Origin: an uncultured Nitrospira sp.
GTDB taxonomy: Bacteria; Nitrospirota; Nitrospiria; Nitrospirales; Nitrospiraceae
DNA length: 41,996 nt
Direction: 5' to 3'
NCBI GenBank assembly: GCA_902500715.1
Contig: CABVRO010000013.1
Span: 1 to 41,996 of the forward strand
The position numbers and the translations under genes were made by a program. The notes under the pieces were generated by a model. It searched no databases. It was not told the origin of the DNA and saw only the letters and a list, made by a program, of their open reading frames with translations. Below, piece after piece: positions 2,312 to 39,275 of this stretch; position 1 is the stretch's first letter, and the number at the start of each line of letters is the position of its first letter.

Positions 2312-3030
2312 TGCGGATATTTTTAATCGTTGCGGTGCTGCTCATGAGTGGAATGCCGGCCGTGGCTCAACCGGTGAAGCCCGATGAGCCGGCGGTGGAC
2401 CTCCCGTCTTTACAGGAGGTCCAAGAAGTCGTGAAGAAGATCCAAACCCGCTATGAGAAGACCAAGGACTTGCAGGCGTCATTCACGCAAAAGACCAGGA
2501 TCGAAGGATTTTCGACGCCTGTGATTTCGACCGGACATTTCTATATCAAGAAGCCCGGGCGTCTGCGATGGGATTATATCGAACCGGCCACGGAAGAAAT
2601 TTACGTCAACAAAGACGACGTCAAAATGTACGTCCCGGAGCACAAGCAGGTGCTGGTGGGCAAGCTCACGTATATGGCCGCCTCCCAGGCTCCGCTGCAA
2701 TTGCTGCAAGGGGTGGCCAAGCTGGATGAAGAGTTCGACATTGAGCCCACGGCGAACAAGGACCGTGGCGCAGGGGGTATTCTGCTGGTCTCTTTGACTC
2801 CGAAGCCGGGGCGGGCCGAACCGGAGCGCGCGATTCAGAAGATTGTGATCGAAGTCCAGCCGAAGACATACTTCCTCAAGACGATCGCTCTGCATGAGGT
2901 CAGCGGAAATATCGCGACCTTTGAGTTTTCAGAGTTGAAGCCGAACAGCGGGCTGAAGGACGACCTATTTGATTTCAAGGCTCCGGCCGATGTAGAAATC
3001 GTGCGGGCGCCGGTGTTGAGCAGACCCTAG
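2308..3030 (+). CDS. lolA: Outer-membrane lipoprotein carrier protein LolA
   Basis: This is a periplasmic chaperone that takes mature lipoproteins from the LolCDE complex and hands them to the outer membrane. The 240-residue product begins with a signal peptide (cleavage near AVA-Q, about residue 21). The LolA fold follows: an amphipathic 'YEKTKDLQASFTQKT' helix, a 'G-FYIKKPGRLRWDY' strand and a 'IYVNKDDVKMYVPEHKQ' strand. This is slightly longer than enterobacterial LolA. The ATG sits in an ATGATG that overlaps the ftsK stop by 4 bases, and the second ATG (2311) is an equally possible start. ftsK next to lolA is a common bacterial arrangement, so this looks like an ordinary two-gene transcript. 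The family call is strong. Confidence 0.93.
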   Translation: MMRIFLIVAVLLMSGMPAVAQPVKPDEPAVDLPSLQEVQEVVKKIQTRYEKTKDLQASFTQKTRIEGFSTPVISTGHFYIKKPGRLRWDYIEPATEEIYVNKDDVKMYVPEHKQVLVGKLTYMAASQAPLQLLQGVAKLDEEFDIEPTANKDRGAGGILLVSLTPKPGRAEPERAIQKIVIEVQPKTYFLKTIALHEVSGNIATFEFSELKPNSGLKDDLFDFKAPADVEIVRAPVLSRP

Positions 3031-3153
3031 CAGGATGGTGAAAAAGTCCGCCGGCTTTGTTCTCCATCGCAGAAAACCTCAACGTACCACAAGGGTACGC
3101 CTCGATTTTCTGCTCGCTGCGGCCTCGCTGGACGACCTTTTCGATCATCCTGC
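3030..3153. repeat. 124-bp nested inverted-repeat element after lolA
   Basis: The element begins GCAGGATG at the last base of the lolA stop and ends CATCCTGC. Its outer arms pair imperfectly over about 20 bases. An inner pair, GCAGAAAA (from 3068) and TTTTCTGC (to 3117), encloses a CGTACC-ACAAG-GGTACG hairpin. The whole unit can fold into one long cruciform. It has no coding potential. It resembles a REP/MITE-like dispersed element, and a copy of one end recurs at 23291-23310. It could also act as a transcript-end hairpin for ftsK-lolA. Confidence 0.7.
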
Positions 3154-3241
3154 GAGCGAATGGTTCTTTAGCCGCCCATAAGAAACAAGCAAGACGCAAC
3201 GATGACCGGTGAATCGTGAGTCCGGATTTGGCGAGGAAGGT

Positions 3242-4003
3242 ATGAGCCCAACCTGTACACGCAGCATCACCGAAGCGGTGGAGCGGGCGATTTCGGCCTT
3301 GGATCTCGACCGGCTTGAGCGGGATTATTGGGATCAGAACGAATTTCTGTATATCCCGGAGTTTTTACCGCGCGATTTTGTGGAAGCGACCCTGGCTCAG
3401 CAAGCCCAAATGCTCAAGTCAGGATTGAACCGCAATTATATTCCCGGGCATAAGAAGGGCGGCAGTGTCAGCTATTTTGCCGTGATGGAGAAAGCGCCGC
3501 AGTTCATCGACCTGTATCGCTCGGATGCCTTCCGGGCGATGCTCAATCGGTTGACCAGGGTGAATTTGCTGCTCTGTCCCGACAACGACCCCCATTCCTG
3601 TGCGCTCTATTACTATACGGAAACCGGCGATCACATCGGGTATCACTACGATACGTCCTATTACAAAGGCGCCCGGTACACGATTCTGATGGGATTGCTC
3701 GATCGGTCCACGCAGTGCCGCTTGGTCTGCGATCTTTTCAAAGATGTGCCGGGGAAACAACCGGTGCACCGTGAAGTGGCGACTGCGCCGGGCGATCTGG
3801 TGATCTTCAATGGCGACAAGCTCTGGCATGCCGTCACGCCGCTCGGAGAGCAGGAAGAGCGGATCGTGCTGACCATGGAGTATGTGACGAATCCCGACAT
3901 GGGCGCGTTCAAGCGTCTGTATTCCAATCTGAAAGATTCATTCGCCTATTTCGGATTGCGCTCGGTGTTTAAGCGGGCGTACGCACCTCGCTCACAGTCC
4001 TGA
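3242..4003 (+). CDS. 2-oxoglutarate/Fe(II)-dependent oxygenase, HalD/BesD-like
   Basis: This is a 253-residue cytoplasmic protein with the double-stranded beta-helix iron site of 2OG oxygenases. The ligands are H135-x-D137 in 'GYHYDTSYY', H196 in 'DKLWHAVTP', and R207 as the probable 2-oxoglutarate anchor. The overall pattern recalls the HalD/BesD group that acts on free amino acids. Those halogenases replace the Asp ligand with Gly or Ala to make room for chloride. Here the Asp is kept, so hydroxylation is more likely than halogenation. The substrate is unknown. A GTG at 3209 would extend the frame by 11 codons, but the ATG at 3242 follows a GAGGAAGG ribosome-binding site. Its left neighbours give no functional hint, and it converges on the kinase gene ending at 4080. 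Confidence 0.8.
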   Translation: MSPTCTRSITEAVERAISALDLDRLERDYWDQNEFLYIPEFLPRDFVEATLAQQAQMLKSGLNRNYIPGHKKGGSVSYFAVMEKAPQFIDLYRSDAFRAMLNRLTRVNLLLCPDNDPHSCALYYYTETGDHIGYHYDTSYYKGARYTILMGLLDRSTQCRLVCDLFKDVPGKQPVHREVATAPGDLVIFNGDKLWHAVTPLGEQEERIVLTMEYVTNPDMGAFKRLYSNLKDSFAYFGLRSVFKRAYAPRSQS

Positions 4004-4079: not shown

Positions 4080-6830
4080 TCATCGTTGCGCCTCCTCTTG
4101 CTGCGCGAGTGCCGGAAACCGCAACCGGAAGGTGGTGCCTCCGCCTTCGGTGCTGTCCACCGTGATGGTTCCGGCATATTTGGTCACGATCTTGTGCACG
4201 ATGCTGAGTCCGAGTCCCGTCCCTTTGCCGGCCGATTTGGTGGTGAAGAACGGATCGAAAATCCTCGGCCGGATGGAAGCCGGGATGCCCGGGCCGGTAT
4301 CGGCAATGGTCACCTGAATCCATCTGCCGTCCTGGCCGGTCGCTAACGTCAAGCAGCCGATTCCCTCCATGGCCTGGGTGGCGTTGCTGATCAAGTTGAC
4401 AAACACCTGATCGATTTCTCCCTTTCGCGCGCGAAGAAACACAGGGGCTTCAAACTGCGTGGCGACCTCCACTTGGCCGAAATGAGGCCCTCGCCGGACC
4501 ATCTTGACCGCTTCGAGCAAACGTTCTGTCACATCGATTTCCGTCTCTCCGTCCCTGCCGGCCGCGCGGGCATAGCCGGCGAAGTCCCGCACGACGGTGG
4601 AGACGTGACGGGCGTAGCCCACAATATCGGCGGCAAACTGTTTCACCGTGTCCGGATCGTTTTCATCCTGGATCAGCTCGGCCATGCTGAGAATAGCCTG
4701 GGCCGGGTTGTTGATTTCGTGGGCCATACCGGAGACCATGGTGCCCAGGCCGGAGAGTTTTTCGGCCTGGATCAGTTCATCCTGGAGTTGTTTGTCGTCG
4801 GTGATATCCCACAACAGGATGCCCACTTGATACTGCGGGGATTCCGGGGTCGCGACCGGAAAAAACCGATAGCGATACAGCCGTGCGGCGACTTCGCATT
4901 CGCGTTCAGAGAGCCGATGAGGCGAGTCTGCCGGTTGCGTGCTCCATTCCACCACCAGCTGTTGAAGGGCGGACTCGCTCAGGGAAAGGCATTCGCACAG
5001 CGGATGGCCGATCAGCGATTCTCCGGGAGGCGCAAAGTACTGATGGGCCAGCGCATTCGCATACTCAACGTGCAAGTCGCTTCCGCACAGGAGAATGGCG
5101 CCGGGCAGACTGGCCAGCAGGCTCTGAGTCGTGCGATGCGCCGTACGTAATGCCTGCGCGGCTCCTGTGCGATCGACGAACTGTCCGATTTTCATGCCCG
5201 TGTCGGCGAGGATTTGAATCAGGTGGCTGTCGGAGGCCCGCCGGTGTTCGGTATACAATTCGAGCACTCCGTGGATGATGCTGCCGGTCCGGATGGGGAC
5301 GATGCAGGCCCCATGAATACCCAGGCGAGAGGCGGTCGGTGTGCGGGTGAATCGGGAATCCGTCAGGACGTCCGGTATCCAGAGCGGGAGTTTGGAGGCC
5401 CAGGCGATGCCAGGGAAATCCATCCCCGGCGGGAACTCACTGTTGCGACAGACCGAGAGAAACTCATCCCATCGATGTGAGGGGCGGATCCAGCTTCCCT
5501 GACACGTCAACCTGTCTCCCATCGGCCCGCATTGCCACAAGAGGGCCATATCCCACGGACCCATTGTGCCTGCGACCTGGAGAAGTTGCGGGATAGCTTC
5601 GTCGACGGTGCTGGCTTGCGCGAGGATATGACTGATGGAGAGTTGTGCCTGCTGCAAGCTGTCCCGTTGTTTGCGAGCGCTGATGTCCTGAAAGACCACG
5701 ACAGCGCCGACCGGCCGGTCTCGTTCACGGATGGGACTGGTGACGTAGTGGACGGGAAACAGCGAGCCGTCCTTTCTGGCGAAGGTCTCGTTCTGGATGC
5801 GATGAATGGCCCCGTCATGAAGTGCCGCGCAGAGACAGAACGGGTCCGAGGAGTGCAGCGCATTCCCGTTGCCGATCCGATAGAGGAGCGGTGCCAGCGG
5901 TTTGCCGATCAACTCGGCTGCGCTCCACCCGAGCATCCGTGCCGCGGTAGCGTTGGCGAAGGTGGCGCATCCTTGTGGGTCTAGTCCGAAGATGCCTTCT
6001 CCGGCGCTGTCGAGAATCAGCGCGTTCTGATGGGACAATCTGACGACAGATTCTTCAGTACGTTTCCGCCGCGAAATATTGCGAATGATGCCGCTGAAGA
6101 ACAACCCTTCACTCGCACGCCAGGATGCCAGCGAGAGCTCAATCGGGAATTCATCACCGGTTTTGGTCAGGCCGACCATTTCGATGGTATGCCCGATGAT
6201 CGAGGCTGTTTCACCCTGGGCCAGGCGCGCGATGCCGGCCGCGTGCGAGGCGCGAAACCGTTCCGGCATCATGATGGTCAGCGCGCGCCCGAGGGCGTCT
6301 TCTTTAGTGTGACCGAACATTCGCTCGGCGGCACCGTTCCACCAGATGATGAGGCCGCTCTGGTCGGCGAGCACAATGGCGTCGGTCGCCGACTCCACTA
6401 ACGCCCGGAAGCGTTCTTCGCTGGCCTGCAGCGCCTCCTCCACATGCTCGGCCCGGACGGTCAACCCTTTCACCGAAACGGCGCGGCGAAGGATGGCCTT
6501 GAGCTCTTGGGAATTATACGGCTTGGTCAGATATGCGAAGGCTCCTTTGACCAGAGAGCCGATCGTGTTTTCTGGCGTGGCGTTTCCGGTCAGGATGATG
6601 ACGGGGAGACTCGCATCCAATTCCATAAGCACTTTCAGGATCGAGAGACCGTTGAGGTCTGGCAATTGGATGTCGAGGAGCGCCGCGTCATAGCGGGTCT
6701 GTTTGGCTCGTTGAAGGGCGTCGGCTCCGGAGGCGGCGCTGTGTACCAGGTATCCCTCGTGATCCAACATGTCCGTGAGAGATTCCCGGATATCCGGATC
6801 GTCATCGACAATAAGAACGGGAGGGCGCAT
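4080..6830 (-). CDS. Receiver-PAS-PAS-GAF-PAS histidine kinase
   Basis: This is a 916-residue cytoplasmic signalling kinase with no membrane segment. In order it has a receiver domain (about 1-120; acidic pocket D9-D11, phosphoacceptor D53, K103), a PAS domain (about 140-260), a second PAS (about 265-390), a GAF domain (about 400-550) and a third PAS (about 565-680). A HisKA helix follows with H704 in 'MAHEINNP', then an HATPase ending near 910 (N-box 'NLISNATQAME', G-boxes 'DTGPGIP' and 'GTGLGLSI'). The receiver comes first, so the kinase probably takes phosphate from, or is gated by, an upstream kinase. The receiver closely resembles that of the gene ending at 10414, which suggests duplication. 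The gap to the upstream kinase gene is 242 bp, so it may have its own promoter. The ribosome-binding site is weak. Confidence 0.92.
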   Translation of the reverse strand: MRPPVLIVDDDPDIRESLTDMLDHEGYLVHSAASGADALQRAKQTRYDAALLDIQLPDLNGLSILKVLMELDASLPVIILTGNATPENTIGSLVKGAFAYLTKPYNSQELKAILRRAVSVKGLTVRAEHVEEALQASEERFRALVESATDAIVLADQSGLIIWWNGAAERMFGHTKEDALGRALTIMMPERFRASHAAGIARLAQGETASIIGHTIEMVGLTKTGDEFPIELSLASWRASEGLFFSGIIRNISRRKRTEESVVRLSHQNALILDSAGEGIFGLDPQGCATFANATAARMLGWSAAELIGKPLAPLLYRIGNGNALHSSDPFCLCAALHDGAIHRIQNETFARKDGSLFPVHYVTSPIRERDRPVGAVVVFQDISARKQRDSLQQAQLSISHILAQASTVDEAIPQLLQVAGTMGPWDMALLWQCGPMGDRLTCQGSWIRPSHRWDEFLSVCRNSEFPPGMDFPGIAWASKLPLWIPDVLTDSRFTRTPTASRLGIHGACIVPIRTGSIIHGVLELYTEHRRASDSHLIQILADTGMKIGQFVDRTGAAQALRTAHRTTQSLLASLPGAILLCGSDLHVEYANALAHQYFAPPGESLIGHPLCECLSLSESALQQLVVEWSTQPADSPHRLSERECEVAARLYRYRFFPVATPESPQYQVGILLWDITDDKQLQDELIQAEKLSGLGTMVSGMAHEINNPAQAILSMAELIQDENDPDTVKQFAADIVGYARHVSTVVRDFAGYARAAGRDGETEIDVTERLLEAVKMVRRGPHFGQVEVATQFEAPVFLRARKGEIDQVFVNLISNATQAMEGIGCLTLATGQDGRWIQVTIADTGPGIPASIRPRIFDPFFTTKSAGKGTGLGLSIVHKIVTKYAGTITVDSTEGGGTTFRLRFPALAQQEEAQR

Positions 6831-7072: not shown

Positions 7073-9388
7073 CTACGGCGTCGATGCGGGTGCGTTGTCG
7101 AGCGGCAAGGTGAAGTAGAACTGAGTTCCGACACCGAGCCGGCTTTCCACACACATCTGTCCGCCGTGCAGAGCCACAAGACTCTTCGTGATGAAGAGTC
7201 CGAGTTGCGCCCCTTGCGAGGAAGGCATGGCGGACTCGACCTTGGAGAACTCGTTAAAGACATGGGGCAACTCGTCGGGGGCAATTCCACAGCCGGTGTC
7301 TGACACCGTAATCTGGGCGTACCTCTCGTTGCAGATGCTGTAGCCGACTGAGACATGTCCGGAAGAGGGAGTGAATTTGATGGCGTTGCCGACAAGATTC
7401 CAAAGAATTTGCTCTAGCTTGTCGCGGTCGGCACGCACGGTGATCGGCTGTTCGCAAGACAGGACGTCGAGGACGATGGATTTTTCGGCGGCGAGCGTCT
7501 GAAAGCTTTCCACCACATCCCGGACGAACCCATCGATGTGCAGCGATTCGGGCTTGATCTCGATCCGGCCGACATCCAGGCGAGACCAGTCCAGTAGTTG
7601 ATTGATGATTCGTGTGAGCCGATCCACGTTGTGTTTGACCCGCTGGAGGTAGTGCTCTTGCCGCTCTGAAAGTTGACCGGTGAGACCGTCCAGCATGTTC
7701 TCGACGAACCCTTTGATGGAGGTCATCGGGGTGCGTAATTCATGCGATGCGACCGACACAAATTTCGAGCGCCGTCGGTCGTGTTCCTGCAGGCGCTCAT
7801 TCACCGTTTGCAGTTCGTGCGTTCGTTCCTGCACGCGTCGTTCGAGGTGGTCCGTCAATGTGGCCAGTTCGGTATAGGCGCGCGCATTGTCCACGGCGAC
7901 TGCCACGTGACTGGCAATGGTGACCAGAAGGTCGAGATCTTCCTGGCTGCAGGGATGGGTGCCCCGGTCGGCGCCCAGGCAGCCGAGAATCCGCTGTTGA
8001 CTTCGAAGCGGCGCGGCGACGAAGGAGGAGATTCCCACCTGACGAAGCCACGGAAGCACTGCGGGGGAGATGCGATCGGCGACCGGCTCAATGCTCGGAA
8101 CGAACAGGGGCTTACCATGGATCAGCAGTTCTGCGGCAAATCCGCCGTCTTCGCACACGGGCATCTCAAGCCGTCGAGCGGCTTCCTCCGCTTCCGGGGG
8201 CATGCCCAGCATTTGTCCCACCGTCGCAACGCCCCGCTCGTTATCCCATAAAAACAACACCATCCGGACGAATCCCAAATTTTCACTGAGGAGCTGCAAG
8301 ACAATCGAGAGCAGCCGGTCAAGGTCGAGCGTGGAGGTGATGGCCGTGCTGGACTGATTCAAGGTGGTCAGTTGCGTGACATGACGCCGGATGGTTTCAA
8401 GGTTGGAGGAGATGGCCTGGTTGCGCTCTTGAAGGGATTTGGTCATCAGATTGAACAGCGCCGTCAGCTGGCCGACTTCATCCTGAGTGGTCGGAACGAC
8501 AAAGGTGGAAAGATCGCCCTCGCTGACTTTGCGCGCGCCTGCGGCGAGATGGCGCAAGGGAGTGATGATCCGGCGGGCCAGCAGATTGGTGCAGAGAATG
8601 CCGGCGGTGATGATGCCGAGGGTAAGGAGGAGAAAGTTTCGCAAAACCTTCGCCAGTTCTCGTTGCATCGGCACCTCGGTCAAGCCGATTTGGACGACGC
8701 CGAAGGCCTGAGGGGTAGCCGGTGCGTTCGTGGCTTTGCGCGTTTCTTCCTCCTGGAGCGCCAGCGCTTCCAGGCGGGATTCCGATCGCTTCATCACCGG
8801 GATAGCAAAATCGTAGAACGTCTCTTCGTGAAGGCCCGATGTCGAAATCGGAAGAGCCGAGTCCTTCTCCCGCAGAGGGATTGTGTCCGCGCCGCTGAGC
8901 CTGAGGCGCGTGACGGTCGGTTCCGCACCCGAACGCTTGATCGCCGCGTCCGCGATGTCGAGACGCGGATAAAAGGGTCGATCCGCCGACCGGACGGTCC
9001 CGAGCGGGCTGTTGAGTTTTCCTTTGCTCTTTGCGGCGAGAGTCTGGCCGTCTGCGCCGGTGATCAGCGCATAGACCACCTCGTCAACCCCCATGACACC
9101 GTCGATGAACTGCTCCAGGATGACACGATCCTCGATGATGATGCCGTATCGCACGTTGTGGGCGAGGTTCTTGACCAGAATGGTTCCGAGATCTTGGACT
9201 CGTTCGGTCATGGCGATACGCTTGCTGTGAATGAAGTACCAACTCATTCCCGAGCAGGTCAGAATAATGATCAAACTGAAAAATACAACAAACTTGGTCC
9301 GGAGACTGACAAATCGTCCCGGGCCGCTCGGGTACAACGAGGGTGACGTGAGGTAGTGGGCGGGGCCTTTCACGGTGAGTCCTTTCAT
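7073..9388 (-). CDS. Membrane sensor histidine kinase (periplasmic sensor-HAMP-GAF-HisKA-HATPase)
   Basis: The 771-residue product has two membrane helices (about 28-55 and 245-268) flanking a periplasmic sensor region of about 190 residues. A HAMP linker (about 268-325), a GAF domain (about 350-500), a coiled coil, HisKA with H549 in 'SHELRTP' and an HATPase domain to the end follow. It is a classic transmembrane kinase without its own receiver, so it must phosphorylate a separate protein; the receiver-only partner ending at 10414 is the closest candidate. A TTG one codon earlier is possible, but the ATG at 9386-9388 fits a TGATG junction in which the start shares one base with the stop of the upstream binding-protein gene. 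That means coupled translation, and suggests the binding protein presents a ligand to this kinase. Confidence 0.92.
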   Translation of the reverse strand: MKGLTVKGPAHYLTSPSLYPSGPGRFVSLRTKFVVFFSLIIILTCSGMSWYFIHSKRIAMTERVQDLGTILVKNLAHNVRYGIIIEDRVILEQFIDGVMGVDEVVYALITGADGQTLAAKSKGKLNSPLGTVRSADRPFYPRLDIADAAIKRSGAEPTVTRLRLSGADTIPLREKDSALPISTSGLHEETFYDFAIPVMKRSESRLEALALQEEETRKATNAPATPQAFGVVQIGLTEVPMQRELAKVLRNFLLLTLGIITAGILCTNLLARRIITPLRHLAAGARKVSEGDLSTFVVPTTQDEVGQLTALFNLMTKSLQERNQAISSNLETIRRHVTQLTTLNQSSTAITSTLDLDRLLSIVLQLLSENLGFVRMVLFLWDNERGVATVGQMLGMPPEAEEAARRLEMPVCEDGGFAAELLIHGKPLFVPSIEPVADRISPAVLPWLRQVGISSFVAAPLRSQQRILGCLGADRGTHPCSQEDLDLLVTIASHVAVAVDNARAYTELATLTDHLERRVQERTHELQTVNERLQEHDRRRSKFVSVASHELRTPMTSIKGFVENMLDGLTGQLSERQEHYLQRVKHNVDRLTRIINQLLDWSRLDVGRIEIKPESLHIDGFVRDVVESFQTLAAEKSIVLDVLSCEQPITVRADRDKLEQILWNLVGNAIKFTPSSGHVSVGYSICNERYAQITVSDTGCGIAPDELPHVFNEFSKVESAMPSSQGAQLGLFITKSLVALHGGQMCVESRLGVGTQFYFTLPLDNAPASTP

Positions 9389-10365
9389 CAAAAGAGCTCG
9401 TCGGCCTTTTCCTCGAGATCTCTGGGGATCTCGATGTCGAGGAACTTGGCGGTTTTACGATTCAGACTCATTTCGATACGATCCGGTGGTAACGGTTTTG
9501 CGGGGAGTGAGACGTGCCCGTCGAGGATCTTGCGGGTGAGTTGTCCGGCTTGCCGTCCGATATCGCCGTAGTTGACCGACAGGCAGAGCAGGGCCCCGCT
9601 TCGCGCGAACTCCCGCGAAAATCCGACTACCGGCACGCGTTCCTCCAATGCGGTATTCAAGATAAACCGAAGCGATTCGTCGGTGAGCACGGTGGAGTCG
9701 GGGACGAGCCACAATGCATCGATCGACGGCAGCAAGGTGCGCAGCGCGCCAGGCACATCCCGCTCGCTGTTGAGTTGGATCGGGACAAGGTCTGTCCCGT
9801 TGGACTTGAGCAGTCTCCGCGCGTCTTCGATCAGCGTCGCGGTCTTGGACGGATCGTACAAGGTGCCGACGTGTTTGAGCCGAGGCAGCAGGGATTTAAT
9901 CAAGATGAGCTGCCGCTCCATTGGAATTTCCATGAGCACGCCCGTCATGTTGGGGGCGTTGAGCCCATACTTAGACGGGTCCAGCACCATGGCATAGACC
10001 ACCGGAATGTCCACGATCTCGAGTTGTGCCGCCTTCGCCGCCTTCAACCCGACAGCGAACACCAATGCCGGGTCGGCTGCACGGACCTTGCGTGCCAGTT
10101 TCCGTCCCTTCTCCAAATCACCTTGTAAGTCATATTCGGCGAGCACGACATCGTTCGGAAGGGCGGCTTTGAAGCCGCTGATAGCTTGGTTATAGGCGGC
10201 GATGTCCGACGACTTGAGAATGACGACGTCCGCGGCCGCGGCCAGCCCGGTACTGAAGAGGAAGCAGACGAGGGCGGCGACGGTCCAACTCAGGCTCTGC
10301 CGAAACCGATCGACAGGCCCTATGGTGAACGGTGATTGTATGAATGGGAACGTCACAGTCTGCAT
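9388..10365 (-). CDS. ABC-type periplasmic substrate-binding protein (ABC_sub_bind family)
   Basis: The 325-residue protein has a long n-region and a signal peptide (hydrophobic core about 27-42, cleavage near AAA-A/D around residue 46). A two-lobed periplasmic binding fold of the PF04392 type follows, with the family-like 'PVVYAMVLDPSKYGL' and 'SVNYGDIGRQAGQLTRKIL' segments. Relatives bind amino acids or other small organic ligands; the ligand here cannot be read from sequence. No permease or ATPase gene is nearby. The gene ends inside a TGATG shared with the sensor kinase, so it may serve as a sensory ligand presenter rather than a transport component. The ATG at 10365 directly abuts its GAGG, so an in-frame GTG at 10356 is an alternative start. 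Confidence 0.85.
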   Translation of the reverse strand: MQTVTFPFIQSPFTIGPVDRFRQSLSWTVAALVCFLFSTGLAAAADVVILKSSDIAAYNQAISGFKAALPNDVVLAEYDLQGDLEKGRKLARKVRAADPALVFAVGLKAAKAAQLEIVDIPVVYAMVLDPSKYGLNAPNMTGVLMEIPMERQLILIKSLLPRLKHVGTLYDPSKTATLIEDARRLLKSNGTDLVPIQLNSERDVPGALRTLLPSIDALWLVPDSTVLTDESLRFILNTALEERVPVVGFSREFARSGALLCLSVNYGDIGRQAGQLTRKILDGHVSLPAKPLPPDRIEMSLNRKTAKFLDIEIPRDLEEKADELF

Positions 10366-10413
10366 CCTCGTCGATCCAGCCGGCCCCGTGAGCGATTGCC
10401 GAATGCCTCCTGT

Positions 10414-13400
10414 CTAGGTGTCCGCGTGCCCCTTTGTTGCGTGAACGATACCGAGAACGCGTGTAGCGACCCCATCGAGGTTGCGGTGAATACGGCCGGT
10501 CCAGGTCAGCCAATGGATGGAGTGATCGGCCCATACGACGCGATGCCGGATGTTGAGCGTGGACTGGTCGCGCACACTGTGTTGAGTCTGCATCAGGACC
10601 GACCCACGATCGAGCGCATAAATCAGGCCGATATATGCGGCATAGGTGCCGGGGAAAGACCCGGAACTCAGACCGAACAGCGCCTCGACGTCGGGTGACC
10701 AGTAGAGACGATCGGACTGCAGGTCCCAATCCCAGATGCCGACTTCCGATTCTGTCAGCGCCCTGCGCAATCGTTCTTCGCTGAGGCGCAGCTGCTCCTC
10801 AGTCTGTTTGCGTTCCGTAATGTCGGTGGAGATGCCGCACATGGCGGAGACGCGGCCTGCCGGATCAAGAATCGGAACCTTGACCGAGAGGTACGTGTGT
10901 AACCCGTCGGTATGGGGCGCATACTCTTCGATTTCCAATGGGAGGCCGTTCGCGAGGACCGAGCGGTCGTTCTTCCGAAACGCATCGGCGATGTCTTGCG
11001 GGAAGATATCGTGATCGGTTTTTCCGCAGATCTGATCCTGCGTGAGATGAAACAATTGCTCGAATCGCTGGTTGGCGATCAGGTAGCGCCCGTCGGCCTG
11101 CTTCGCATAGATGACGGCGGTGGTGTTGTTGATGACCGACTGGAGCAGTTCTTCGCTGCGATGGAGAGCCTCTTCGGCGCGTTTGCGGTCGTGGATGCAT
11201 CGGAGAGAACCGGCCATACGGACGGCAAGGCCATCGGCGTTCCGCTCCACCACCTCAGCGCGGGCATGGAACCATCGATACTCGCCCTGCTTGGTCAGTA
11301 ACCGGTAGTCGACGTCGTAGTGAGAGTTGCCTTGTTGGAGGCAGGCCGTCAGGCGATCGAATACGATCTCGCGATCATCTGGGTGCAGCCGGGAGGCCCA
11401 GCTGTCGAGGATATCGGGGAATTCCTGCTCGTTGTATCCCAGCATCTCCCGCACGCGCGGCGACCACCAGACCGGAGTCATTGGCGAGTGCCAGGGCTGG
11501 TCGGGAAGCACATGGCCGTCCCAGAATCCGTCGTTCGATCCCCGGATGACCGATTCGAGGCGCTCCTCGCTTGCCCGAAGCGAATCCTGGACCTGTCTGT
11601 AGTCGGTGATATCGCGAGAGATCGCCAAGAGGCGTCGTGAATAACCCTGCGTATCGAGCATGGGAGTGACCTGCACGTCCCACCACTTCGGGACTCCGTC
11701 GGTGGTGGGGCAGAGGCCGACAAATTTACCGATCTCGCCGGCCTTGGCGGCTTCGAGAGCTGCCAGGGCGGCATCCCGATCGTCTCCTTCCCACAGCTCC
11801 GTCCAGGGTTTGTTCAGGTAGCCGGTGAGGTCGTCGATGCGTAACAGTGTTTTCCCCGCGTCGTTCATGTATTGCAGCCGACCGTCCAGATCCAACACTT
11901 TGATGCAGTCTGCACTGCTGCGCAGGATTTGGTTCTTGAACTCTTCGCTGTCGTGGAGGGCGACCTCGGTCTCTTTCATGGCGGTAATGTCTTCGCAGAC
12001 GATCAGCACCACCGGGACCTGTTGATCGTTACGCACGGCCTGCGCGGTCGCTCGTACCCAGACGACACTGCCATCCTTGCGAAACTTGCGAGCCTCCCAA
12101 CGCTTGGGCTGTCCCATCTCGGACAGGCAGGAGGCGAGAGTGCGGCGCACCGTCTCCCGATCCTCGGGGTGAAACCGTTCCAGGATGGGAGACCCGAGGA
12201 GGTCGGCCACTTCAAAGTCGAGGTGGTCGGCGCCGAAGCGGTTGACCGAGAGGACGGTGCCTTCGGCATCGACCATGAAATACATGGACGGATTGTCGTC
12301 GAACAGGACCCGATACCGGCGTTCGCTGTCGAGCAGCGCCGCTTCAACGCGTTTGCGCTCCGTCACGTCCTCCGCGAAGCCCACGATGCGGTAGACCGTT
12401 CCCGACGCGTCACGGATCGGGAATGCGCGATCCCAGATCCATCGCATCGATCCATCGGGGCGGAGGATGCGATACTCCTCACTGTACGATCCGGAAATTT
12501 GCCGGTACATGGCCGCGTCCCGAACCCGCGACCGGTCGTCGGGATGGATGGCGTCCATCCAAGAGCCCGGCATCGCGTAGAGGCTTTCGCAGGAGTGCCC
12601 CCAGACTTCTTCGTACCCGGGGCTGATATAGAGCACCCGGCTCTTGGCCGGATCGGTGATCCAGAACACTTCCCGGATGTGTTCCGCCAGCTGACGGAAT
12701 TGCTCCTGACTCTCTTCGACGGCTCGTTCGGCTTCCAGGCGTTCGGTGATATCGCGGAAGACGACCACAACCCCCGCCACCGTTCCCTTCTCGATGATCG
12801 GGGTGCTTACATATTCCACCGGTAGAACGGTGCCGTCTTTCCTCCAGAAGACATCTCGCGACACACGATGGACCACGCCGTCGCGAAGCGCCGCATAGAT
12901 GGGGCAATCATCGGCGGGGTAGAAGCTGCCGTCGGGCCGTGAGTGGTGGAGCCGTGTATGCATCGGTTGCTCGACGAGCTCGGATGGGTCATACCCGAGT
13001 AATTGAGCGGCGGTCGGATTCACGAAGGTGGCCAGTCCGTCACGATCCAGTCCGTAGATGCCTTCCCCTGCTTGCGTGAGGATGACTTCGTGCAGATGGC
13101 GGAGGCAGTCGAGAATCTCTTCTGCCTTGCGTCGTTGAGTAATGTCGCGAATGATGCCGCTGAAAAAGAGTGCAACATCGGTCCTCCACATGGCCAACGA
13201 CAGCTCGATCGGGAACTCGCTGCCGTCTTTGCGTAGTCCTTCCAGTTCGACCAGGCGACCGATGAGACGGGACTGACCGGTTTCCTTCACGCGGGCGAGC
13301 CCTCGCTCGTGAGCGGCGCGATACCGTGGCGGCATCAACATGGTCAGGGGGCGCCCGCGGACTTCCTCATCGGTATATCCGAACAGGCGTGAAGCGGCTT

Positions 13401-13911
13401 GATTCCAGGAGAGGATACGGCCGTCGTGGTCCACCAGCACGATGGAGTCGGTCGCGGCCTCGACCAGGGATCGAAATCGTGCTTCGCTTTCGCTCAGCGC
13501 GTGCTCGGCATATTCGGCTTTGGCGGCGAGGGCCTGGATACCGATGGCCCGACGCAGCACGGCCCGCAATTCGTCCCGGTTATAGGGTTTTGTGAGATAG
13601 GCGAATGCGCCCTGTGTCAGTGAACCGACGGTACGGTCGGTGCCCGTGTAGGCCGTGAGGATGATGACCGGAAGCTGCGGCTGTTGTTCTTGCAATGTTC
13701 GCAGGACCGAGGAGCCGTCTCCGTCCGGCAGGCCCAGGTCCAACAGGACGGCATTGTAGTGATGGTCGTGTGTCTGCGTGAGCGCTTCCGCGCAGGTGCC
13801 GGCGATGCTCACGTCGTAGCCGTCGTGGTCGAGTAAGTCTTGTAGCCCGAGAGCGATATCTGGATCGTCGTCCACGACGAGGATCGAATGACCGGGCGTA
13901 ATGGCTGTCAT
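10414..13911 (-). CDS. Response regulator receiver with eight PAS domains and no kinase domain
   Basis: The 1165-residue protein has one receiver domain (about 1-125; D14-D16, phosphoacceptor D58, 'AYLTKPYN') followed by eight consecutive PAS/PAC units of about 125-130 residues each. They are joined by the usual 'DITERK' type helices. The last PAC strand ends in 'GIVHATKGHADT' and then a stop. There is no HisKA, HATPase, GGDEF, EAL or DNA-binding domain. The next gene starts 48 bp downstream, so a frameshifted kinase tail is not hidden there. It may be an input scaffold for the two nearby kinases, or a hybrid kinase that lost its 3' end. A CGAGG site 5 bases before the ATG supports the start. 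Domain calls are firm; the role is inferred. Confidence 0.9.
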   Translation of the reverse strand: MTAITPGHSILVVDDDPDIALGLQDLLDHDGYDVSIAGTCAEALTQTHDHHYNAVLLDLGLPDGDGSSVLRTLQEQQPQLPVIILTAYTGTDRTVGSLTQGAFAYLTKPYNRDELRAVLRRAIGIQALAAKAEYAEHALSESEARFRSLVEAATDSIVLVDHDGRILSWNQAASRLFGYTDEEVRGRPLTMLMPPRYRAAHERGLARVKETGQSRLIGRLVELEGLRKDGSEFPIELSLAMWRTDVALFFSGIIRDITQRRKAEEILDCLRHLHEVILTQAGEGIYGLDRDGLATFVNPTAAQLLGYDPSELVEQPMHTRLHHSRPDGSFYPADDCPIYAALRDGVVHRVSRDVFWRKDGTVLPVEYVSTPIIEKGTVAGVVVVFRDITERLEAERAVEESQEQFRQLAEHIREVFWITDPAKSRVLYISPGYEEVWGHSCESLYAMPGSWMDAIHPDDRSRVRDAAMYRQISGSYSEEYRILRPDGSMRWIWDRAFPIRDASGTVYRIVGFAEDVTERKRVEAALLDSERRYRVLFDDNPSMYFMVDAEGTVLSVNRFGADHLDFEVADLLGSPILERFHPEDRETVRRTLASCLSEMGQPKRWEARKFRKDGSVVWVRATAQAVRNDQQVPVVLIVCEDITAMKETEVALHDSEEFKNQILRSSADCIKVLDLDGRLQYMNDAGKTLLRIDDLTGYLNKPWTELWEGDDRDAALAALEAAKAGEIGKFVGLCPTTDGVPKWWDVQVTPMLDTQGYSRRLLAISRDITDYRQVQDSLRASEERLESVIRGSNDGFWDGHVLPDQPWHSPMTPVWWSPRVREMLGYNEQEFPDILDSWASRLHPDDREIVFDRLTACLQQGNSHYDVDYRLLTKQGEYRWFHARAEVVERNADGLAVRMAGSLRCIHDRKRAEEALHRSEELLQSVINNTTAVIYAKQADGRYLIANQRFEQLFHLTQDQICGKTDHDIFPQDIADAFRKNDRSVLANGLPLEIEEYAPHTDGLHTYLSVKVPILDPAGRVSAMCGISTDITERKQTEEQLRLSEERLRRALTESEVGIWDWDLQSDRLYWSPDVEALFGLSSGSFPGTYAAYIGLIYALDRGSVLMQTQHSVRDQSTLNIRHRVVWADHSIHWLTWTGRIHRNLDGVATRVLGIVHATKGHADT

Positions 13912-13979: not shown

Positions 13980-16028
13980 TCAAAATCTCACGGTGACCCA
14001 ACCCATCACCCGCCGGCTGATGAGGTCGCCCAGCGGGTGTTCCTGGTGTTCATCGTTAAGCGCGTTGAAAACCGAGACCGCCACTTCTGCCTCACGCATG
14101 TAGCCGGCGGCGGCCTTTTGTTGCCAGAATCGATAGCCCGCACGGAGATTGAGCAGGTTGTAACTGCCGACGACAGTCGTCGGTGGCAGAAAGCCTCCGA
14201 TAGGGGCCAGCGAAGAGAAGGCGTTTCCGATCGGGTAGGAAGCGGATCCCACATGATGAAATGTAATTTCTGCGTTGAGCCCATTTTCCCATTCCATCCG
14301 GACACCGAGGTTGAATTTCGAGCGGGGTGCGACCCGCGTGGTGGTTCCCGAAAAGGTTTGGCCGATGTGTTCGTACGCATAGTTGGCGAAGGCCGACAAC
14401 CATCGATTAGCCAAATACTCGATCCCCACCTCTCCGCCGTAAATGTCGGCCACTCCTCCGTTGGCGGCTCGGACCGGATCTGAAGGGGACGGACCGGCGG
14501 AGAGGAAATTGATCAGATTCGAGATGTGGTTGAAGAACAGGTCAGCTCTGGCTCTGAGTCTATGTCGAAAAAACCAACCTTGGTAGCTGATATCGTACGA
14601 CACGATCTGTTCTGGATTCAGAGTGGTGGACCCCAGCGACGGCGAGGTGACGGTTGCAGGTCCCAGTGGCGGTGGAATGGAGATGGCGTTGACCAAGTCG
14701 AGGTAGGTTTCGAGGAGCGTTGGAGGCCGATAGGCAATGGACAGGCCGGCACGGACGGAATGATCGGGAGCCGGTCGGTAGACAATGGCAAAGCGCGGGC
14801 TCAGTTGCGCATGGATGAAGCTGTCGAGGTCAAGACGAGTTCCGGCCGTGATGGTGAGGGTGTCTGTCAAACGCCAATCATTATTGAGGTACAGCCCCAG
14901 CCTATTTTGCGTCTGTCCGCTGGCGATAAAATCGCTTGACACGGTGTTGTGGCGGTAATTGATGCCGTACGTGAGATAATTCCCTTCGGTGAGTTGGAGG
15001 GTGTGTTGTGCTTCCAAGTTGTAGGTATTTGTCGTCGCGTTGAACAGCGATGAGTTGTTCCGATTCGTGATACGAAGCAAGTTCGTGAGCTGCGGGTCCA
15101 GAAGAATAAGGCTATCGGTATTGTTCCCCTGCCACCATGCGCGGACAAAACCATTGGGGCGTTCGTAAGCAAGATTTACATAACCTTGCGTGGGGCGGGT
15201 GGAACTGATTCCCACATCGCCCAAATCACCGTCATAGCGGTTGCTGTCGACAAGGCCTCCTGAGAACAGGAGTTTGGCGTCCCCTCCTAGCGCATACTCG
15301 GTGTGGGCGTTCATCTTATTATTGCGGAAAGCGAGGCTGTCCCGATTCCGCCATTGCTGGTTCTGATCGTGCCCTACAGAGAGCCGGTACCCTACTTTGC
15401 CCGATGATCCAGCGTGAACCGCGACACTGGAGATCGTGCCCACCTCGCCTCCCCCAAACTGGAGGGTCGTACCCTTCATCTCGTCCGGTGATTTGGTGAT
15501 GATGTTGATGACGCCGTCGAATGCGTTGAATCCATAAATCGCGGAGGCCGGCCCTTTCAGGACCTCGATCCGTTTGATTTCAGGGAGGGTAACCGGGAGA
15601 TTCTTCCAAAACACATTGCCCTGTGCGTCGAGATAAATCGACCGCCCGTCTACCATCACCAACAGTTTATTGGCCCTGAATTGATTGTCGCCACGGACGC
15701 TCACATTGAAATCAGCTCCAGTGGTTTGCATGACCTCGAGTCCCGGGACGCGCCGCAAGATGGTTGGGATGTCGGTGGCACCGGAATGCCGAATGTCCTC
15801 ATCCGTGATGACATAGACATTCGATGGCGCCTGCGAGATCGGCTGTTCGTAACGTGATGCGATACTCACGGTTTCTTCTTCCTTCAACAACTCCAGTTCT
15901 TGGCTTATGGCGGCCGGTTCAGGCTCGGTGCGCTCGGTTGACGGTTCGGCCTGTGCCATGGCTGTCAGGTTCATGGCCAATAAAGCCGCCAGTAGGGGAT
16001 GCCACGATGTGCTCAGTTCAGGTTTCAT
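13980..16028 (-). CDS. TonB-dependent outer-membrane receptor, copy 2
   Basis: This 682-residue protein is a 22-strand-type outer-membrane transporter energised by TonB. It has a signal peptide (cleavage near AQA-E, about 27), a TonB-box-like stretch 'EETVSIAS', and a plug domain with 'APSNVYVITDEDIRHSG', 'IPTILRRVPGLEVM' and 'RIEVLKGPASAIYGFNAFDG'. The barrel ends in 'GWVTVRF', with the terminal Phe used for outer-membrane assembly. It is about 10 bp downstream of a close paralogue, so the two are co-transcribed. The first in-frame codon is a GTG (16031), directly followed by an ATG that I take as the start. The substrate cannot be told from sequence; a siderophore, cobalamin-like or other scarce ligand is possible. 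Confidence 0.92.
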   Translation of the reverse strand: MKPELSTSWHPLLAALLAMNLTAMAQAEPSTERTEPEPAAISQELELLKEEETVSIASRYEQPISQAPSNVYVITDEDIRHSGATDIPTILRRVPGLEVMQTTGADFNVSVRGDNQFRANKLLVMVDGRSIYLDAQGNVFWKNLPVTLPEIKRIEVLKGPASAIYGFNAFDGVINIITKSPDEMKGTTLQFGGGEVGTISSVAVHAGSSGKVGYRLSVGHDQNQQWRNRDSLAFRNNKMNAHTEYALGGDAKLLFSGGLVDSNRYDGDLGDVGISSTRPTQGYVNLAYERPNGFVRAWWQGNNTDSLILLDPQLTNLLRITNRNNSSLFNATTNTYNLEAQHTLQLTEGNYLTYGINYRHNTVSSDFIASGQTQNRLGLYLNNDWRLTDTLTITAGTRLDLDSFIHAQLSPRFAIVYRPAPDHSVRAGLSIAYRPPTLLETYLDLVNAISIPPPLGPATVTSPSLGSTTLNPEQIVSYDISYQGWFFRHRLRARADLFFNHISNLINFLSAGPSPSDPVRAANGGVADIYGGEVGIEYLANRWLSAFANYAYEHIGQTFSGTTTRVAPRSKFNLGVRMEWENGLNAEITFHHVGSASYPIGNAFSSLAPIGGFLPPTTVVGSYNLLNLRAGYRFWQQKAAAGYMREAEVAVSVFNALNDEHQEHPLGDLISRRVMGWVTVRF

Positions 16029-16038
16029 CACGCAGCGT

Positions 16039-18105
16039 TCAAAACCTGAGAGTGACCCATCCCATCACCCGACTGCCGAGTGTGTCGCCCAAAGGATGTT
16101 CCTTGTGGCGATCGTTCAGGGCGTTAAAGATCGCAATCGCCACCTCGGCCTTGTCGTGCCAGAATCGGTACCCGCCCCGCAGGTTCAGCAACGTGTAACT
16201 ATCGACCGTCGGAGTGGTCGATACGGGCAGCACCGGAGCAAGTGCGCTGAAGAATTCGATCAACGGATAGGCGGCGCCTGCGACGTAATGCACCGCGATT
16301 TCTGAATTGAAGCCGTTGTCCCAATCACCGCGGAGGCCCACATTCGCTTTCCAGTCCGGGCCGCCGCGTCGAGAGACGCCGGTGAAGGTTTGTCCGATTT
16401 TCTGATAGGACATATTCGCAAAGCCGCTGAGCCATCTGGTGGCAAGGAACTCCAGTCCTGCTTCGGTGCCATAGATGTCGGCCTCACCGCCGTTGACGAG
16501 CGTGCGCGCGGTGCCGACGGTTTGGAAGTTGATCAGGTCGGAGAGGTGATTGAAGAAGAGGTCGAGCCTGGTCCGGAGGCGGTGTTTCATCCACCAGCCC
16601 TGGTACCCGGCTTCGTAGGAAATGATTTGCTCCGGATTGAGTTTCTGTGAGCCGAACAGCGGGATGGGCGCGAACAGCGGTGGAACGGTCGGCAAAATTC
16701 GAAGGTCAAGATTCGACTCGAATAGGGTCGGGGGGCGGTAGGCGAGGGATCCGCTGACGCGAAACGTATGCTCCGGCGTCAGGTTGTAGACGAGGGCGAC
16801 TCGCGGACTCCAGGTGCCGTTGATTCTCGTGTGCAGGTCGTAGCGGACCCCGGCCACGAGGGTGAGAGAGGGACGTATCTTCCACTCATCCTGGAGATGG
16901 ACCCCAAGACGATCTTCTCGCCCTAATTCCGAGACGGCACTGCCGTCGACGGTGTTGTAACGATAATTGACGCCATAACTCAGCCGGTTGGCCGAGCCGA
17001 ATTCGAGGCTGTGTTGTGCCTCTATGTTATAGGTGTTCGTGGTGAAAGACACATTGGATCCGCCTGTCGCGTTCGTCTGGCGGACAAATCGCGAGAGGAG
17101 CGGATGTGTGGCGGAGTCGACGGGGATGTCGTTGCCCTGCCACCAGCCCCGCACGGAGAAGTTACGGTACTGGTAATGCACGTCCGTATAGCCTTGATTG
17201 AATTGGGAGCGCGGAATCTGGACGTTTGAAACGGGGCCGTCGAAGCGGTTGGTATCGATGAACCCCCCGGCGACGCGCAAGGTAGCGTCGCCGGAGAAGT
17301 TGTACTGCGTCTGCACGTTGAACTTGTTCGACCGGAAGGCAAGGGCGTCATGGTTGCGCCATTGTTGATTCTGGTCATGACCGACGGAGAGGCGGTAGTC
17401 AAGTTTGCCCGCTGATCCGGCCTGGACGGCGGAACTGGAGATGGTGCCGAGTTCCCCGCCGCCGAACTGCAACGTCGTACCCCTCATGTCCCGAGCGGAC
17501 TTCGTGATGATGTTGATCACCCCGTCGAAGGCATTGAAACCGTAGACGACAGAGGCGGGCCCTTTCAGTACCTCGATGCGTTTAATCTCCGGGAGGGTGA
17601 CCGGAAGCGATTTCCAGAACACGAGGCCTTGGCCGTCGATGTAGATCGAGCGACCGTCCACCATCACGAGAATTTTGTTGGCGAAGAGTTGATTGTCGCC
17701 TCGTGCGCTGACATTGAAGTCCGCCCCGGTGACCTGCATGACATCCAGCCCGGGTACGCGGCGGAGAATAGTGGGAATGTCGGTCGCGCCCGAGTGCCGA
17801 ATGTCCTCGTCGGTGATGACGTAGACGTTGGAGGGTGCTTGCGAGATGGGTTGCTCATGGCGAGTGGCGATGCTGACGGTTTCTTCCTCTTTGAGCAGTT
17901 CGAGTTCTCCGTTGACCGGTGCTGCTGCTGGAGTCGCCAAGGAAACCAATGCGTCCTGAGCATGAGCGCCGATGGCCCCGCAGCAGAGCAAGAGTCCTCC
18001 ACAGAGGGGAAGGGCAGAGTCTCGCAATCGATGGCTGATCGGTCGTGTCGCCACAGGGCGTCGCTTAGCTGGCGGAGAGAGGGAGACGGTGCCGTGGGTT
18101 TCCAT
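16039..18105 (-). CDS. TonB-dependent outer-membrane receptor, copy 1
   Basis: This is a second TonB-dependent transporter of about 688 residues, strongly similar to its downstream neighbour throughout the TonB-box, plug and barrel. The shared block 'ELELLKEEETVSIA' and the plug motif 'RIEVLKGPASVVYGFNAF' are almost the same in both. A signal peptide with core 'ALPLCGGLLLCCGAIGAHA' precedes it, and the barrel ends in 'GWVTLRF'. The start is uncertain: the frame is open to a GTG at 18204, with ATGs at 18117 and 18105, and none has a good ribosome-binding site. I use 18105 because it gives a plausible signal peptide. The 230-bp gap upstream probably carries the promoter for the receptor pair and lies next to a ribbon-helix-helix regulator gene. 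Confidence 0.9.
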   Translation of the reverse strand: METHGTVSLSPPAKRRPVATRPISHRLRDSALPLCGGLLLCCGAIGAHAQDALVSLATPAAAPVNGELELLKEEETVSIATRHEQPISQAPSNVYVITDEDIRHSGATDIPTILRRVPGLDVMQVTGADFNVSARGDNQLFANKILVMVDGRSIYIDGQGLVFWKSLPVTLPEIKRIEVLKGPASVVYGFNAFDGVINIITKSARDMRGTTLQFGGGELGTISSSAVQAGSAGKLDYRLSVGHDQNQQWRNHDALAFRSNKFNVQTQYNFSGDATLRVAGGFIDTNRFDGPVSNVQIPRSQFNQGYTDVHYQYRNFSVRGWWQGNDIPVDSATHPLLSRFVRQTNATGGSNVSFTTNTYNIEAQHSLEFGSANRLSYGVNYRYNTVDGSAVSELGREDRLGVHLQDEWKIRPSLTLVAGVRYDLHTRINGTWSPRVALVYNLTPEHTFRVSGSLAYRPPTLFESNLDLRILPTVPPLFAPIPLFGSQKLNPEQIISYEAGYQGWWMKHRLRTRLDLFFNHLSDLINFQTVGTARTLVNGGEADIYGTEAGLEFLATRWLSGFANMSYQKIGQTFTGVSRRGGPDWKANVGLRGDWDNGFNSEIAVHYVAGAAYPLIEFFSALAPVLPVSTTPTVDSYTLLNLRGGYRFWHDKAEVAIAIFNALNDRHKEHPLGDTLGSRVMGWVTLRF

Positions 18106-18331
18106 CGAAGGGCACATAGCATACCGTGGGTCCCGTCCCGGCGGTGTCGGGCATGGTCGGGTGGAAGAAAAGAACAAGGACCATATGGTTAGAGATATGC
18201 TCACGCAAAAGGCATGCTTGTGGGATTTTCGGCACGCAGATAGGCGATACGCGAATTCTGCGAGGATCTGTGCGATTCGGTCGCTCTTCGCAATGGACGA
18301 AGTTGAGAGAGAGGCGCTAGATTCGAGTCGC

Positions 18332-34810: not shown

Positions 34811-35047
34811 ATGCGGTTGCTCTTGGTCGACAACCGGCGACAGGAAACCGGCTCTCTGCCACGCCGAAAGGGCACGAGCACAATTCGATCAACCCGGTTC
34901 TCTCGACTGCATCGCTCCATGGCGATGGAGGAAGCAACCGTCATGCCGCCGATGGTTGAAGATGAAGCCATCGCGGTACATCAGAAAATAACGATCGGGG
35001 CCGGCAGGAACAAGCGGGACTCAGTAATTGAACCGCAACGACAGTGA
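34811..35047 (+). CDS. Doubtful 78-codon frame with a strong ribosome-binding site
   Basis: A perfect AGGAGG stands 7 bases before the ATG, and the product begins 'MRLLLVDNRRQE', reminiscent of a response-regulator start, but nothing receiver-like follows. The frame overlaps the FadL gene tail on the opposite strand by 27 bases. It may be a remnant of a receiver gene or a chance site. Confidence 0.18.
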   Translation: MRLLLVDNRRQETGSLPRRKGTSTIRSTRFSRLHRSMAMEEATVMPPMVEDEAIAVHQKITIGAGRNKRDSVIEPQRQ

Positions 35048-36409: not shown

Positions 36410-36413
36410 GGGG

Positions 36414-39131: not shown

Positions 39132-39275
39132 ACGGAAGCCGCCCGATTCGGTCTATGCCGCGTGACGGAGGAGTGCCCCGGCGGCCAGATCATAACGTAC
39201 CCGTCCTCGGGAGGCGAGGCCCTCCGTGCAGCGTTGTGTCTGCCGGCGCGCGCCCGGTTCCCTGGTTGTGATCCG

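Follow-up and report, generated by a model that had tools for sequence, protein, structure and literature searches.

Response regulators that combine a receiver with PAS domains and have no obvious output domain have been described in archaea (Galperin et al. 2018, PMC5847659). The authors expect such regulators to dimerize and to act through protein contacts, and they state that no REC-PAS regulator without an output domain has been studied experimentally. The examples given there have an N-terminal receiver followed by one or two PAS domains. Such proteins form a named class and appear in censuses.

The protein encoded at 10414-13911 of the window, the 41,996-nucleotide stretch of DNA analyzed here, is a member of this REC-(PAS)n kind. 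It shares the N-terminal receiver followed by PAS domains only. The family of the window protein differs from the archaeal examples in being bacterial, in having a variable string of 3 to 8 PAS domains, and in belonging to a fixed operon that also encodes a kinase and a periplasmic binding protein.

Receiver-PAS-kinase hybrids, such as the one encoded at 4080-6830 of the window, have a receiver and a first and second PAS domain that are homologous to those of the REC-PAS protein. They continue with GAF, PAS, HisKA, and HATPase domains. NtrC-type regulators are found beside the same kinase in other genera (e.g., loci L098 and L104). They place a receiver in the same operon and, like the REC-PASn proteins, have a small residue at one presumed specificity position, but they possess Sigma54_activat and HTH_8 output domains that the REC-PASn proteins lack. 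No account of this operon was found among the titles and abstract openings of papers listed from one open-licence library.

The source organism is an uncultured Nitrospira sp. whose nearest named relatives include Candidatus Nitrospira defluvii FP929003. Members of Nitrospira are nitrite oxidizers.

Architecture of the REC-(PAS)8 protein and its locus

The REC-PAS gene lies on the minus strand and begins with ATG. Transcription runs from right to left through two TonB-dependent receptors, the REC-PAS gene, the PF04392 binding protein, the membrane kinase, and the receiver-PAS-kinase (Table 1). The gap between the REC-PAS gene and the binding-protein gene (10366-10413) is 48 bp, and the last 4 bp of the binding-protein gene are shared with the kinase gene. 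Neither a permease gene nor an ATPase gene lies beside the binding-protein gene.

Pfam assigns Response_reg to residues 10-119 of the REC-PAS protein, followed by PAS-family matches only; the scan returned no HisKA, HATPase, GGDEF, EAL, or HTH domain. Module matching counts eight PAS domains. The AlphaFold2 model of the protein is weak (mean pLDDT 66.5, pTM 0.31), and thus only its secondary structure is used. The secondary-structure string contains eight repeats of a linker helix plus PAS strands, with a helix of ~20 residues at the head of each module. These helices connect all of the PAS modules and none exits M8, where the final predicted strand spans 1149-1158 and the stop is reached at 1165. 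The preliminary description had read the protein as a receiver and eight PAS domains without an output domain, ending directly after the eighth PAC strand, with the next gene 48 bp on and a receiver-less kinase nearby. All of this is borne out, the lack of a receiver in the kinase by Pfam.

Table 1. Genes of the REC-PAS locus and modules of the REC-(PAS)8 protein (window coordinates).
Feature	Position	Strand	Basis
REC-PAS-PAS-GAF-PAS-HisKA-HATPase paralogue	4080..6830	-	Pfam
Membrane histidine kinase, HAMP-GAF-HisKA-HATPase, no receiver	7073..9391	-	Pfam
Periplasmic ABC_sub_bind (PF04392) protein, distant relative of TrpX-type binding proteins	9388..10365	-	Pfam
REC-(PAS)8 protein, 1165 aa, no output domain	10414..13911	-	ORF and Pfam
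Terminal PAS module M8, aa 1031-1165; final PAS in all 53 orthologues; no exit helix	10417..10821	-	Module matching and AlphaFold2
PAS module M7, aa 906-1030, 375 nt; missing from nearest relatives	10822..11196	-	Alignment and nt identity
PAS module M6, aa 773-905	11197..11595	-	Module matching
PAS module M5, aa 646-772	11596..11976	-	Module matching
PAS module M4, aa 519-645; diverges from sister genomes, probably exchanged	11977..12357	-	Nt identity
PAS module M3, aa 394-518	12358..12732	-	Module matching
PAS module M2, aa 267-393	12733..13113	-	Module matching
PAS module M1, aa 143-266, FixL-like; His201 and Arg207 align with FixL heme-ligand His and Arg206	13114..13485	-	Structure match and alignment
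Receiver domain, aa 9-125; acidic pocket D14/D15, acceptor D58, T86, K108	13537..13887	-	Pfam and alignment
TonB-dependent receptor, upstream of REC-PAS gene	13980..16031	-	Pfam
Second TonB-dependent receptor	16039..18204	-	Pfam

The kinase-less state across the Nitrospira family

The REC-PAS gene is present in 28 of the 29 genomes of the genus Nitrospira. In the 29th (G009), the locus is present, but the contig stops at the expected position of the gene (L081). Orthologues also occur in other genera of the same family. The orthologue set is made up of the window protein and 52 others; L076, L078, and L095, cut by contig ends, are excluded, and L080, cut at its 5' end, is retained.

All 53 orthologues contain a receiver and PAS domains, and none contains HisKA, HATPase, GGDEF, HTH, or another output family (Pfam, E 0.001). 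The 12 families matched across the set are receiver, PAS, or PAS-like, plus a weak FleQ match in 4 proteins. Every orthologue ends with its last PAS domain and a tail of a few tens of residues at most. Receiver residues D15, D58, T86, and K108 are invariant in all 53. When the window is compared with L054, L058, and L074, dN/dS is 0.06-0.32 for each module; the maximum is found in M4 against L054 and in M8 against both L058 and L074. These ratios indicate that the gene is under purifying selection, M8 included.

The preliminary description offered either a natural sensor scaffold that receives phosphate from the neighboring receiver-less kinase or a hybrid kinase that had lost its 3' end through a deletion. 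The second possibility, as a recent event, would have removed the kinase part and thereby joined the gene to that of the binding protein. The first 400 residues are indeed 49% identical to the receiver-PAS-kinase 5 kb away, and receiver-PAS-kinase proteins are common in the phylum. However, a longer homologue with a kinase domain, proposed as a check, is absent from the 53 orthologues, the junction with the binding-protein gene is the same in 55 of 55 loci, and purifying selection reaches the end of the gene. Recent truncation is thus rejected. By this comparison, the kinase-less state is one that has been kept across the Nitrospira family.

An ancient loss is compatible with the best explanation of the protein's role given below. 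The family would have arisen once from a receiver-PAS-kinase ancestor and been kinase-less since, and this origin seems quite possible. The receiver and first PAS group near receiver-PAS-kinase proteins, but in an unrooted tree, which the reverse course, a gain of the kinase by the sister group, fits equally. Moreover, kinase-less REC-PAS forms are also found in another family (f3). The entries without a kinase inside the clade of the 4080-6830 protein (L059, L063, and L082) are pieces of split genes and not kinase-less forms. In these three genomes (G026, G016, and G020), the gene of the 4080-6830 type is present as two ORFs; G016 is a one-contig assembly.

Linkage to the binding protein and kinase

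Gene order was examined in 58 loci, found by similarity to the REC-PAS protein and not via its neighbors; L082, L083, L084, and the second REC-PAS3 of L123 are excluded. The binding-protein gene directly follows the REC-PAS gene in all 55 loci with that side visible, and the receiver-less kinase comes next in all 53 visible loci. Chance linkage is rejected on these counts. Co-occurrence with this kinase had been proposed as a check on a partnership between the two proteins, and the partnership gains support both from the 53 loci and from the acceptor pocket, invariant in the 53 orthologues. The scaffold reading of the preliminary description is therefore plausible and can be tied to a definite partner, with phosphotransfer and scaffolding themselves as predictions. 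The TonB receptor gene is found just upstream in 38 of 53 visible loci, and thus its link is not strict.

The gene after the kinase varies. An NtrC-type regulator occupies this place in 23 of 51 loci and a kinase-bearing gene in 27, 26 of them of the 4080-6830 kind and the remaining one (L124) encoding GAF-HisKA-HATPase-REC; L123 has neither. The NtrC-type regulators of L098, L104, and L092 are composed of a receiver, Sigma54_activat, and HTH_8 (Pfam). The 4080-6830 gene of the window stands in the place held by an NtrC-type regulator in other genera. When an NtrC-type regulator was sought elsewhere in the genus Nitrospira, the best matches were ~53% identical to that of L098 and there were many paralogues, so a moved copy would be indistinguishable from a paralogue.

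Twelve loci of genus g2, chosen for the absence of a REC-PAS gene, encode the binding protein, the kinase, and the NtrC-type regulator. They form one clade in a tree of the binding protein and kinase, and a single change thus explains the absence. Since the partners of the REC-PAS gene are constant, yet the pair occurs in g2 without it, the REC-PAS protein appears to need the pair, and the pair does not need the REC-PAS protein.

Related receiver-PAS proteins occur in other settings. In family f3, a binding-protein/kinase pair of the same kind precedes a different one-PAS receiver protein, which also lacks an output domain, in two loci where the kinase is visible. These proteins are 296-315 aa long (L116, 14003-14950; L151, 10639-11529). 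The genome of the window encodes a second kinase-less REC-PAS3 protein of 530 aa (L083, G000:C20:18000-23500, 1828-3420), and other members of the genus have proteins resembling it (L129, L130). The 5.5 kb region of L083 contains neither a binding-protein homologue nor a kinase homologue of this type, and REC-PAS proteins thus do not always need such a partner.

Proposed role of the REC-PAS protein

The favored reading, with nearly even odds, is that the protein is a natural kinase-less receiver-(PAS)n regulator that acts as an accessory to the binding protein and kinase encoded next to it. The membrane kinase would receive information from the periplasmic binding protein and through its own GAF domain, and it would phosphorylate the receiver of the REC-PAS protein. 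The PAS string would contribute cytoplasmic signals, in the case of M1 possibly via heme. Phosphorylation and ligand occupancy would jointly set the shape of a dimeric rod in which the PAS domains are joined by helices. As no helix exits M8, a contact between M8 or the rod and another protein would serve as the output. The contact is most likely with the kinase itself, as feedback on its kinase or phosphatase activity; this is the first choice because no other cytoplasmic partner is invariant. Where an NtrC-type regulator is the next gene after the kinase, it would give the transcriptional output. Judged from gene order, the REC-PAS protein is probably an accessory to the kinase beside a normal transcriptional output in these 23 of 51 loci. 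In Nitrospira proper, the receiver-PAS-kinase would replace the NtrC-type regulator. Against the favored reading, the receiver-PAS-kinase could equally donate or take phosphate.

The receivers were compared at helix-1 positions that are taken here to determine kinase specificity. REC-PASn proteins most often read D-I-G-D-L at these positions, and the adjacent NtrC-type receivers most often read D-I-G-N-R. The Gly at position three occurs in 44 of 56 REC-PASn, in 22 of 35 of these NtrC-type receivers, and in 6 of 71 receivers of other kinds; it may reflect common descent of the first two groups. The fourth and fifth positions differ (DL versus NR). In this alignment, three of the five positions fit a shared kinase and the other two do not, which is suggestive at most.

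Two other roles compete with the accessory partner. The receiver could be a phosphate sink, drawing phosphate off the kinase so that the NtrC-type response becomes sharper or later, with the PAS string tuning this drain. An NtrC-type regulator is co-present in 23 of 51 loci, and both receivers share residues at some of the presumed specificity positions. However, a pure sink requires neither a constant last PAS nor up to eight PAS modules, and the genus Nitrospira has no adjacent NtrC-type regulator to protect. A sink is therefore unlikely.

Alternatively, the protein could supply input in trans to the paralogous kinase at 4080-6830, with which it would pair via the homologous receiver-M1-M2 halves. 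The genes are adjacent in the genus Nitrospira. The window pair is 49% identical over the first ~400 residues, and in most genus members the kinases in this place are 49-53% identical to the window REC-PAS protein over ~390 residues. Against this, 23 of 51 loci keep the REC-PAS gene with an NtrC-type regulator in that place, and in the three genomes with a split kinase gene, the REC-PAS gene is intact (L059; L063; L082 with L057). This role is doubtful.

The variable PAS string

Aligned to the window protein, the REC-PAS orthologues differ by whole PAS modules, cut at the linkers. Ten module sets of 3 to 8 PAS domains are found among the 53 orthologues, and the receiver and last PAS are constant. 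All eight PAS domains are present in three (window, L051, and L093), M7 is missing from 21, and M5 is missing from two. The remaining sets are M1+2+6+7+8 (7/53), M1+7+8 (7/53), M6+7+8 (5/53), M1+6+7+8 (3/53), M1+3+6+7+8 (3/53), and two singletons. Alignment-free matching to the window modules agrees with these sets except in L111 and L112, which have unclear modules. The last PAS best matches M8 in all 53, narrowly in L101 (48 versus 44 bits). Mapped onto the binding-protein/kinase tree, the distribution of every module from M1 to M7 requires 3 to 5 changes. In L111 (5517-8399, G084), the order seems to be M1, unclear, M4, M3, M6, M8, with M4 before M3; nothing else hints that modules have been shuffled and not simply gained or lost.

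The closest relatives of the window protein carry seven PAS domains, not eight. The five nearest (L052-L056, 87-90% DNA identity to the window) lack exactly the 375 nt of M7, with the best-fitting junction at the identical base in all five, and the window falls inside this group in the partner tree. M7 of the window is 94% identical in DNA to that of L074 (G021), a more distant Nitrospira than the five sisters, and 90% to that of L075. The remaining modules are 75-81% and 74-81% identical to these two, respectively. Synonymous divergence from L074 is 0.20 in M7 and 0.62-1.18 elsewhere, and sliding identity places the high-identity stretch at residues ~880 to 1040. The absence of M7 from the sisters, together with 94% identity to L074 versus 75-81% elsewhere, points to the import of a single module.

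M4 diverges in the opposite sense, with 78-82% nt identity to the five sisters versus 82-95% for the other modules. A comparison of every pair among 29 genus members flagged 15 module outliers. Those involving the window are two for M7 and four for M4, and one M4 outlier does not involve the window. Eight are better-kept receivers in pairs with L085 and thus are no exchange signal. The simplest reading of these comparisons is that single modules are acquired by recombination, and M4 was probably exchanged. The assembly that contains the window consists of 241 contigs, so M7 or M4 may instead be the product of chimeric assembly.

The protein may accordingly be described as a kinase-less integrator with a fixed receiver and last PAS, in which recombination within Nitrospira adds, removes, or swaps single PAS modules; this description is plausible but tentative. 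If it is true, strains re-tune the inputs of one kinase pathway while the kinase itself is untouched. The genetic partner of the REC-PAS protein is fixed and its end is constant, and its natural variants, some of them from close relatives that have or lack M7, differ in entire sensor modules. Together these features provide a direct route to the role of a response regulator without an output domain, and to whether single PAS modules exchange as independent inputs.

M1 and heme

Among solved structures, M1 is closest to FixL and DosP and aligns with their heme PAS domains (PDB 1d06, 1dp6, 9bgv) over ~110-120 residues. In contrast to these proteins, M1 of the REC-PASn proteins has no kinase attached. 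The aligned residues are presumed to be the FixL proximal heme ligand, Arg206 (heme-propionate), and Arg220 (oxygen-switch). All 52 aligned REC-PASn proteins that contain M1 retain the proximal His and Arg206. The Arg220 position is not Arg in any of these (V in 37, I in 9, L in 6). The FixL-type His is also kept in 42 of 43 kinase-bearing relatives, a few of which are poorly aligned there; it is thus a property of this PAS type and only a lead towards heme. By these residues, M1 is possibly a heme sensor.

Other genes of the window

Additional gene groups lie on the minus strand of the window. Between 19125 and 31913, two DUF928 genes, a CHAT-TPR protein, a ShlB-type transporter, and two TPS-domain exoproteins are encoded in a row, an arrangement that resembles a two-partner secretion cluster accompanied by a CHAT protein. 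At 35021-41009, a FadL/TodX-type porin, a GAF-HisKA-HATPase-REC kinase, and a protein with a RoxA-like cytochrome c match are adjacent. On the plus strand, 3209-4003 encodes a protein that weakly matches HalD and other 2-oxoglutarate-dependent halogenases.
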